A stretch of DNA of 57,753 nt, taken from contig PLMC01000031.1 in NCBI GenBank assembly GCA_003141495.1, forward strand, positions 88,417 through 146,169, written 5' to 3'. This DNA is from Bacteroidales bacterium (GTDB lineage Bacteria; Bacteroidota; Bacteroidia; Bacteroidales; VadinHA17). The notes beneath the pieces are model-generated. The model had not been told where the DNA came from, did no database searches, and worked only from the letters and a program-made list of their open reading frames with translations. Shown here in pieces: positions 18,773 through 51,369 of this stretch. The first letter of the stretch is position 1. Each line of letters begins with the position of its first letter. A program made the translations under genes and the position numbers.

Positions 18773-19373
18773 ACCCCCCAACCCCCCAAATGGGGGGCTT
18801 TATTGTGGTTCATTCAATAGTGTTTCACTAATCTTTTTTATTTGTTCCACAGTAGAATCAATATTCTCAATAATTTGTTCATTGGTAAAACGAATGACAG
18901 TAATACCAAAATCATTAAGTACATCACTTCTTCCCAAATCATGGACTTGATATTCAGGAAGTTCATGTATACTTCCATCAACTTCAATAATCAATTTAAT
19001 TTTAGGACAGTAAAAGTCAGCTATAAATCTATTTATTGGATGTTGCCTTCTGAATTGAAGTCCTATTATTTGGTTATTATTAAGTCGGGACCATAACAGT
19101 TTCTCCGATTCAGTCTGAATTTTCCTTAATTTTTTGGCTATATTAAAAATTTCTGGTTTAGCTCCAAAATACATTGGATATTCAACACTGACACCTTTCA
19201 CTGATTTATCTGCTTTTAATTATTACATTAAAAATAGGTATAATATTCTGAACAGTGTAAAGTAAGAGATGTCAAATTCCCAAAATTCAGCCCCCAACCT
19301 GCAATTGGGGGTCTTAAGGAAAATAAAATACTTGAACGAATTTTAAGTCCCCCATTTGGGGGATTTAGGGGGT
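18773..19373. mobile_element. Putative inverted-repeat element carrying a DUF559 nuclease
   Basis: The left end (18773-18799) is a C-run/G-run palindromic segment, ACCCCCCAACCCCCC followed by AAATGGGGGGCT. The right end (19345-19373) is AAGTCCCCCATTTGGGGG followed by ATTTAGGGGGT, and read backwards it matches the left end. A third, degenerate left-type copy lies inside at 19290-19315. Between them is one gene, for a DUF559 protein. The same pair of ends occurs five more times in this window without a gene, so this looks like a gene-bearing member of a repeat family. Mobility is inferred, not seen; no clear target-site duplication is visible. Confidence 0.5.
18800..19174 (-). CDS. DUF559 (Vsr-like endonuclease fold) protein
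   Basis: This small protein has 124 residues from ATG 19174; a GTG at 19201 would give 133. It opens with an LRKIQTESEKLLWSRL helix. It then shows FRRQHP at residues 41-46, FIADFYC with D53, and IIEVDGSIH with E64 and D66. That order of R, D, E-x-D is the DUF559 core, related to Vsr and restriction-enzyme nuclease folds; biological role unknown in general. The TAA stop is immediately followed by the inverted-repeat end, with no spacer. Promoter not recognised. Confidence 0.85.
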   Translation of the reverse strand: MYFGAKPEIFNIAKKLRKIQTESEKLLWSRLNNNQIIGLQFRRQHPINRFIADFYCPKIKLIIEVDGSIHELPEYQVHDLGRSDVLNDFGITVIRFTNEQIIENIDSTVEQIKKISETLLNEPQ

Positions 19374-26008: not shown

Positions 26009-26075
26009 ACCCCCCAACCCCCCAAATGGGGGGCTTTCCTTGTTTTTAAGTCCCCCATATGGGGATTTAGGGGGT
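26009..26075. repeat. C-run/G-run inverted-repeat element (no gene), copy between permeases 2 and 3
   Basis: Left end 26009-26035 (ACCCCCCAACCCCCC then AAATGGGGGGCT) and right end 26048-26075 (AAGTCCCCCATATGGGG then ATTTAGGGGGT) are separated by 12 nt. The right end stops 3 nt from the stop codon of permease 3. Confidence 0.75.
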
Positions 26076-33813: not shown

Positions 33814-33896
33814 ACCCCCCAACCTGCCAAATGGGGGGCTAAACATGTTCTAAAGTCCCCCAAATGGGGGTCCCGATAGCTATCGGGATAGGGGGT
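33814..33896. repeat. C-run/G-run inverted-repeat element with an embedded palindrome
   Basis: The left end begins ACCCCCCAACCTGCC at 33814 and the right end closes with AGGGGGT at 33896. The right end is interrupted by the perfect 18-bp palindrome TCCCGATAGCTATCGGGA at 33871-33888, which is absent from the copies at 26009, 19345 and 51341. Confidence 0.7.
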
Positions 33897-36418: not shown

Positions 36419-36501
36419 ACCCCCCAACCTGCCAAATGGGGGGCTAAACTTGTTCTAAAGTCCCCCAAATGGGGGTCCCGATAGCTATCGGGATAGGGGG
36501 T
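36419..36501. repeat. C-run/G-run inverted-repeat element with an embedded palindrome, second copy
   Basis: This is the same structure as 33814-33896, with one base changed inside, including TCCCGATAGCTATCGGGA. It was copied as part of the 301-bp duplication. Confidence 0.7.
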
Positions 36502-41534: not shown

Positions 41535-41613
41535 ACCCCCAAACCCCCCAAGGGGGCTTTAAATTTTTCAGAAGTCTAAAGTCCCTCCCACTTGGAGGAG
41601 GAATTTAGGGAGG
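41535..41613. repeat. C-run/G-run inverted-repeat element, diverged copy
   Basis: Left end 41535-41558 (ACCCCCAAACCCCCC then AAGGGGGCT) and right end 41578-41613 (AAAGTCCCTCCC to TTTAGGGAGGT) are further from consensus than other copies. It lies 56 nt upstream of the response-regulator ATG. Confidence 0.6.
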
Positions 41614-45654: not shown

Positions 45655-45683
45655 AGAAATTAAAGATTAACTCCTCTGTGCAA

Positions 45684-45724
45684 CTCTGTGTCAGTTCTTT
45701 TTTGTTACACAGTAGGACACAGAG
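45684..45724. repeat. Short inverted repeat CTCTGTGTC / GACACAGAG
   Basis: Perfect 9-bp arms at 45684-45692 and 45716-45724 lie between the LolC/E-like gene and the DUF1343 gene. A further CTCTGTG at 45674-45680 repeats part of the arm. This resembles short dispersed intergenic repeats and could serve as a hairpin. Confidence 0.55.
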
Positions 45725-45776
45725 AACCACTGAGATTTAAAAAACAGTAGTTTTACATAAACAAAATAAGTGGTAC

Positions 45777-46981: not shown

Positions 46982-47158
46982 TGTGATTTATTAAATTTAT
47001 TGTCTGGAAGCCCTATGAGATTGCTTCGTCCCCCCGCAAGGCGGGACTCCTCGCAATGACACTGCAAGTAAGTTTATTTGTGGATGGGAGCTTACCAAAT
47101 TAAGTAAAAATCAGGGTCATTGCGAGGAGTGAAACTCCGAAGCAATCTTTAAATCACA
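46982..47158. repeat. REP-like inverted repeat downstream of the DUF1343 gene
   Basis: Core arms are 47018-47060 (AGATTGCTTCG to CTCCTCGCAATGAC) and 47116-47148 (GTCATTGCGAGGAG to CGAAGCAATCT). The left arm contains an extra small hairpin CCCGC..GCGGG. An outer 9-bp pair, TGTGATTTA (46982-46990) and TAAATCACA (47150-47158), encloses them. It lies between convergent genes and could act as a bidirectional terminator. Confidence 0.75.
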
Positions 47159-48461: not shown

Positions 48462-48525
48462 TTTCCCGCAGATTACGTAGATTTTCGCTGATCTTTCTGC
48501 GCCTATCTGCGAGATCAGCGGGAAA
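48462..48525. repeat. REP-like inverted repeat upstream of valS
   Basis: The ends TTTCCCGC (48462-48469) and GCGGGAAA (48518-48525) are inverted, and an inner perfect pair CGCTGATCT (48486-48494) / AGATCAGCG (48512-48520) overlaps the right arm, so two alternative hairpins are possible. The element ends 5 nt before the valS -7 box and takes up its -33 region. Confidence 0.7.
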
Positions 48526-51233: not shown

Positions 51234-51369
51234 ACCCCCCAACCCCCCATTTGGGGGGCTAAATAAAATAGAATAACGACTTAAGAATTGCATAACACTT
51301 CTCGATTCTGATTTCAAATGTTCGTTATTCTGATTTCATAAAGTCCCCTATTTTGGGGATTTAGGGGGT
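51234..51369. repeat. C-run/G-run inverted-repeat element, 136-bp copy
   Basis: Left end 51234-51260 (ACCCCCCAACCCCCC then ATTTGGGGGGCT), right end 51341-51369 (AAGTCCCCTATTTTGGGG then ATTTAGGGGGT). The interior has its own 10-bp inverted pair AGAATAACGA (51270-51279) / TCGTTATTCT (51322-51331). It fills the space between convergent valS and the lipoprotein gene. Confidence 0.75.

Follow-up and report, generated by a model that had tools for sequence, protein, structure and literature searches.

Within the window, by which we mean the whole stretch of 57,753 nucleotides that was analysed, a single gene of the DUF559 family lies between two short inverted repeats, and repeat pairs of the same kind occur elsewhere in the window without any gene. 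Is this arrangement a mobile element whose nuclease moves it, or have the gene and the repeats come together in some other way? We put the probability at roughly two in three that the locus is an autonomous element of ~600 nt, which consists of one DUF559 nuclease gene and inverted ends of triplex architecture, and that the gene-free pairs are its non-autonomous derivatives.

The unit, ~600 nt in length, is located on contig 15 of a draft genome of 3.5 Mb. It is intergenic and its neighbours are a NUDIX-like gene and an esterase-like gene (both named by sight of their translations). Its features are as follows:

18774-18799, no strand: left end, on the 3' side of the gene; C6-AA-C6-AAAT-G6-CT, on the complement a C6 hairpin with G6 and then a third G tract
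18800-19201, minus strand: DUF559 (PF04480) single-domain PD-(D/E)XK nuclease gene, 133 aa, GTG start, assigned by profile match and predicted fold (AF2/Foldseek)
19289-19312, no strand: extra palindromic end-like copy (family D6), internal, between the gene start and the right end
19347-19373, no strand: right end, on the 5' side of the gene; TCCCCC-ATTT-GGGGGA-TTTAGGGGG

Both of the inverted C-run/G-run ends that the preliminary description had placed around the gene were located, and the stop codon of the gene does touch one of them, as the minus-strand reading frame abuts the left end. The arms at 18774-18812 and 19333-19371 are inverted copies of each other and are 77% complementary. The two ends are nevertheless unlike, C6-AA-C6-AAAT-G6 on one side and, on the complement, C5-TAAAT-C5-AAAT-G5 on the other, and a hairpin with a mirror-image purine third strand is present at both. 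The reading frames and a profile search revealed no transposase of a known class in the unit, where DUF559 is the only gene. The earlier statement that no such transposase is present is therefore correct for the unit but not for the genome, which has three Y1 transposase genes elsewhere. All four DUF559 matches of this genome lie between paired ends of this kind, and one of them, L004, is broken and shares its ends with L001. Three end types occur among the four, which was a first hint of several parallel element families instead of a single one.

The gene-free pairs in the window are these:

26009-26075, no strand: gene-free paired-end copy
33814-33896, no strand: gene-free paired-end copy with a small palindrome inserted
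36419-36501, no strand: gene-free paired ends, a tandem duplicate of 33814-33896 with 97% identity across 300 nt
41535-41613, no strand: gene-free paired ends belonging to a diverged subtype; the related genome G026 lacks this copy
51234-51369, no strand: gene-free paired-end copy; absent in the related genome G043

All five copies reported earlier were recovered, with some qualifications. The 33814 and 36419 copies lie within a 97%-identical duplication of 300 nt and hence represent one insertion that was duplicated with its surroundings, whereas the 41535 copy is a diverged subtype. A strict scan of the whole window for a hairpin with a mirror third strand returned four sites. All of them coincide with elements first described, namely 26009, 51234 and the two ends of the DUF559 unit; five shuffles gave no site. 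Genome-wide, a search for the ends with at most two mismatches gave 37 raw, partly overlapping matches and 0 matches for the reversed control. The small palindrome, TCCCGATAGCTATCGGGAT, is found at 33866-33890 and at 36471-36495, within the right end of the two duplicated copies. Between 21057 and 39284 the window contains eight related permease-like genes in a row, which have a common 292-nt 3' segment, and several triplex elements are situated directly at the stop codons of these genes.

The protein matches the Pfam family PF04480 (DUF559) with 116.2 bits against a cut-off of 20.6 (E 7.9e-34). Its AF2 model has a mean pLDDT of 81.5, and the closest structure found by Foldseek is 3hrl, a DUF559 protein of N. 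gonorrhoeae (TM 0.92 by target). The model also resembles the homing endonuclease I-Bth0305I (TM 0.77 by target length). The initial assignment of a Vsr fold holds insofar as the model has a nuclease fold that is distantly Vsr-like, but Vsr itself matches only weakly (TM 0.38, E 0.28). Residues D62, E73, D75 and H79 are invariant across 23 sequences. Judged by its modelled fold, the protein is most likely a PD-(D/E)XK nuclease, for which DNA cleavage is predicted. The gene is under purifying selection, with a median dN/dS of 0.11 (102 usable pairs of 204). A role in defence was considered and dropped, since PADLOC gave weak matches only.

Is the enclosure of the gene a peculiarity of this genome? 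DUF559 genes of relatives in the same genus, family and order were taken from the matches listed (at least ~150), with most of those near contig ends omitted; after removal of two duplicate loci the set comprised 116 genes, of which 104 had full, N-free flanks of 500 nt. One locus, L142, has an N run that makes its end score spurious, and it was excluded from the enclosure count but remains in three of the 106 boundary pairs described below. Most of the relatives' genes were found inside such ends, as the preliminary description had implied: an inverted-end score of at least 14 was obtained for 83 of 104 DUF559 genes. Among neighbour ORFs this score was reached by 2 of 204, and among random windows of the same loci by 28 of 1320. 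The sampling is limited, as one genus makes up 62 of the 116 genomes, and the counts do not represent independent events. At a score of at least 18 the corresponding numbers were 62/104, 2/204 and 3/1320. The other 21 of the 104 genes stay below a score of 14, and in several cases (L035, L037, L050, L095 and L134) no convincing pair is present. The arrangement extends to named loci of other genomes, spanning Bacteroidota, Chloroflexota, Cyanobacteria, Myxococcota, Planctomycetota and others: among the best 80 of 553, 47 of the 73 loci with full flanks score at least 14, compared with 29 of 1130 windows. In five loci (L042, L063, L127, L120 and L054) the DUF559 domain is part of an open frame of ~500-1100 codons, possibly a fusion or a read-through into neighbours.

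The ends of different types share one architecture. Of the two arms that pair, one is rich in C and the other in G, and a third tract is the mirror image of the G-rich one, with T or A opposite A. A shallow test for a C4..G4 hairpin on both sides was abandoned, as it caught only 66 of 104 genes and T/A occurs in the stems of several end types; a triplex scan took its place. With an arm of at least 6, the triplex-like motif was detected on 197 of 214 flanks (107 genes) and in 183 of 1584 control windows, and with an arm of at least 7 on 160 of 214 flanks and in 32 of 1584 windows. For the named loci, once the six of the 80 that repeat genomes already used had been removed, the motif was present on 81 of 138 flanks compared with 31 of 1125 windows. 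As far as their sequence can tell, the DUF559 ends have the intrastrand-triplex architecture of the BoxC/PIT/TM repeats. The notion that the ends are plain terminators was set aside, for both ends match by type and bound the unit.

A careful comparison of related elements shows where the unit stops. We compared 136 pairs of related DUF559 genes at different loci, of which 30 were same-site and 106 different-site; the same-site class is one by design, as it comprises the pairs (30/136) whose flanks are homologous or whose homology exceeds the ends by over 150 nt. In 98 of the 106 different-site pairs, homology has ceased within 20 nt of the ends throughout. Two elements of one genome, L051 and L075, are 87% identical over 594 columns, with all four boundaries exactly alike and unrelated DNA outside. 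Homology that stops at the ends at different sites is what is expected of a mobile unit, and the terminal inverted repeats are its boundaries.

Nor are the ends fixed at orthologous places, where related species have no element, a gene-free one or another subtype. At the site of the DUF559 unit, G018 and G043 have no element, G032 has a gene-free copy, G006 has gene-free ends of another type, G042 contains another DUF559 subtype and G005 an orthologous gene-bearing unit. The 51234 site is empty in G043 and the 41535 site in G026, but as the related species are ~75-90% identical at these sites, the exact junctions are uncertain. Hence, the comparison of orthologous loci that was proposed earlier did bring out empty sites, but neither target duplications nor a clean insertion. 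No target duplication is visible at L051, L075, L001, L048 or L065, and there is no near-identical filled/empty pair among the sites. Together, the enclosure, the presence and absence between species and the homology ending at the ends support the proposed autonomous element with MITE-like derivatives, and from these comparisons it is well supported that the gene and its ends travel together.

Could the nuclease have spread in a different manner, similar to a homing enzyme? It would then cut repeat sites that are empty or gene-free, gene conversion would copy the gene between pre-existing repeats, and new sites would arise by replication slippage or template switching, for instance. We consider this main rival possible but rather unlikely. 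It is favored by the predicted fold close to I-Bth0305I, by the fact that no target duplication was seen and by one place that is gene-free in G032, gene-bearing in G000 and G005, and occupied by the other subtype in G042. However, related gene-bearing elements occupy unrelated sites and lose their homology at the ends, and the relatives have sites without any repeat, so units also reach new places. The likeness to Vsr-like homing endonucleases of the I-Bth0305I type concerns the predicted catalytic fold, whereas DUF559 genes lie outside introns and inteins, at many intergenic sites, and are enclosed by repeat ends of their own. Residence at a conserved target in a gene, intron or intein was not found for the window unit, which is intergenic and has related units at unrelated sites. 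Homing-like copying and insertion could also operate together.

The type of the ends follows the subfamily of the protein. For 85 genes, protein identity and end similarity are correlated with a Mantel r of 0.634, a value reached in 0 of 10000 permutations, and protein clusters with the motifs FHRQV, FDRQR, FRRQHS and FRRQHPY have visibly different ends. Such co-divergence means that ends and protein travel together, but recognition does not follow from it alone, and the same would be expected if the gene were mere cargo.

We also asked where the gene-free copies are found. Types c and d were assigned manually on the basis of identity and motif, with G047:C105 (54%, 90 aa) and G036:C7 (partial, 51%) omitted. 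Exact type d ends occur in 11 of 11 genomes that have the type-d gene (11 of 12 with G047) and in 14 of 105 without one, and type c ends in 5 of 6 and 6 of 110 genomes, respectively. Type b ends are present in 11 of 12 genomes with a type-b gene, counted only at at least 60% over ~100 aa, and in 13 of 104 without one; when partial or broken genes are added (G002, G005, G017, G020, G042, G044), these numbers become 15/18 and 9/98. Reversed-pattern controls gave no match in the 116 genomes, and Fisher p values within the genus only were 9e-6 (d), 4e-4 (c) and 9e-5 (b). Matching repeats without a detected gene occur in 14 (d), 6 (c) and 13 (b) genomes, which may reflect incomplete draft genomes, loss or other sources, and broken type-b genes are found in some genomes of this group. 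G002 and G020 have many type-b end pairs ~210-430 nt apart, some of them around broken DUF559 genes, and these are likely mid-size deletion derivatives.

These data bear on a second alternative, namely that some other factor moves the repeats and that DUF559 is cargo which helps to keep the element, e.g. by cutting genomes that lose it. The co-divergence, which shows joint travel only, agrees with such a role, and so do the genomes that have matching repeats and no detected gene. We nevertheless regard it as improbable. The absence of the gene may result from incomplete draft genomes or from loss, remnants being present in G002 and G020, and gene-free copies of a type are enriched in genomes that have the gene of that type. 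In addition, an unsystematic look at the units read revealed no other common gene between their ends.

A third alternative is that DUF559 serves in Vsr-like mismatch repair or in restriction and that its position between repeats is incidental. According to a study of Caulobacter, the DUF559 protein VsrA is responsible for the in vivo SOS response of a methylase mutant, and the authors interpret this phenotype as mismatch repair of the very-short-patch kind (PMC12907096). The distantly Vsr-like predicted fold would suit this function. However, enclosure of 83 of 104 genes compared with 2 of 204 neighbours argues against a chance position, one genome can have several subtypes, each with different ends, and the match to Vsr itself is weak, which makes this explanation very improbable. 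A repair role could coexist with a role in a mobile element, and the latter offers an alternative reading of the VsrA phenotype. The SOS response in fact counts in favor of the mobile element too, as indirect in vivo evidence for DNA cleavage by VsrA.

We return to the autonomous element and to how it may move. We infer that the DUF559 nuclease itself is the mobiliser. PD-(D/E)XK nucleases cut DNA and do not join it, and a second step, carried out by the host, must therefore be assumed for a lone nuclease of this kind. When DNA is single-stranded, e.g. at a replication fork, each end would fold. The cognate nuclease would recognise its own end subtype and cut there, and the freed or copied unit would then be placed elsewhere via host break repair, leaving no target duplication.

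Among known systems, the closest in working is REPIN/RAYT (TnpA_REP, IS200/IS605-like HUH), which likewise combines a few-copy nuclease gene, inverted palindromic repeats around it and many gene-free pairs. However, the enzyme here is a PD-(D/E)XK protein of the DUF559 family and not a HUH Y1 transposase, and the ends are C/G-tract triplexes. There is no HUH Y1 gene between the ends, DUF559 being the only gene in the unit, and no conserved GTAG/CGTC tag at the foot of the palindrome, the outer right junctions being GTGG, GTTA, GTAG, GTGT and GTAC. MITEs of DDE insertion sequences are similar in being short non-autonomous copies with the ends of an autonomous unit, but here neither a DDE transposase nor a target duplication was seen. 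That Y1/RAYT (HUH) transposases move the repeats, with DUF559 unrelated to them, is scarcely credible and was rejected on the flank counts and on the genomes without Y1: Y1_Tnp genes are present in 92 of 116 genomes, but around the 15 Y1 genes with full flanks (among 30 fetched loci) the triplex-like motif was found on just 2 of 30 flanks and never on both sides, several Y1 genes have other palindromes of their own, and G020, G026 and G035 have repeats and DUF559 genes without a Y1 match. The flanking palindromes of the Y1 genes at L322, L328, L330 and L315 are of the GCCGTAGGCTTCAGCC and GGGCTTTAGCCC type and unlike the DUF559 ends. In our reading, the locus represents a new kind of autonomous element, similar to REPIN/RAYT in working and unrelated to it, with a mobility that sequence comparison supports well.

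The likeness of the ends to BoxC/PIT/TM_ECO repeats extends the question to other bacteria. In Holder et al. 2015 (PMC4666352), these repeats are described as a hairpin with a mirror third strand, forming inverted pairs of two slightly different versions at intergenic, unstable sites, and triplex formation by oligonucleotides of the E. coli motif is shown experimentally. Repeats of this class are reported from over 260 genomes and have been associated with genome instability. According to the same article, the two members of an E. coli pair always differ in their loop variant, a parallel to the two unlike ends of the window unit. Unlike the element described here, the repeats had no associated gene found before, the article reporting that remnants of a transposase or an integrase had never been found near the copies of E. 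coli (PMC4666352), and the arm sequences of the Bacteroidota ends differ from the E. coli consensus. This consensus, CCCTCNCCC-GGGNGAGGG-GGGNGAGGG, is not matched by the window ends, which are C6/G6 variants.

The E. coli gene ycjD belongs to DUF559, and a 901-nt query spanning it is at least 80% covered in 3361 of 5426 genomes. Three BoxC-like repeats lie on its 3' side and none upstream, i.e. ycjD is not enclosed. At five proteobacterial loci (two of them from E. coli), repeats adjoin all five genes and are present on both sides in one only: in N. gonorrhoeae they occur on both sides in direct orientation, and in the alphaproteobacterial Azospirillum and Sinorhizobium on one side only. These exceptions to enclosure may be decayed units. 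BoxC sites of E. coli vary among strains, and the three that were aligned (gntP-fimH, gldA-yijF and yraQ-dolP) are replacements, with ~92 nt in place of 12 nt at gntP-fimH; neither a clean insertion nor a target duplication was found at these aligned sites. The ycjD locus proved a poor choice as an empty site, as strains without ycjD have the eef operon there (PMC12817139). BoxC copies at other places average 3.4 with ycjD and 1.7 without it (24 and 14 rows of 40 listed, H73 and H88 having been dropped), but phylogroup confounds this comparison, which covers close variants only, and it was not used as support.

The DUF559 nuclease family may hence be what spreads these short repeats through many bacterial genomes. 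In its strongest form, this proposal makes DUF559/YcjD the cognate mobiliser of BoxC/PIT triplex repeats across bacteria, with each subfamily reading and spreading its own end in gene-bearing and gene-free form and with ycjD as a domesticated or decaying survivor; we would give it even odds. The literature covered, which left most subscription papers and all preprints outside its scope, revealed no connection between DUF559/YcjD and these repeats. For BoxC/PIT/triplex repeats, whose origin was unexplained, a co-travelling nuclease family offers a directly testable source; it offers a function for a large Pfam family of unknown function and would be a parallel to REPIN/RAYT with an unrelated enzyme. 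If true, this would be a class of mobile elements in which a lone PD-(D/E)XK nuclease recognises a DNA triplex and drives the movement.

The window also contains repeats of other kinds. An inverted GTCATTGCGAGGAG repeat of ~85 nt at 47046-47130 belongs to a separate family that is found at many places in the related genomes searched. Two further dispersed repeat families, CTCTGTG..CACAGAG and CCCGCAGATTACGTAGATT..GCGGGAAA, are represented at 45671-45735 and 48462-48525, and have many matches in related genomes.
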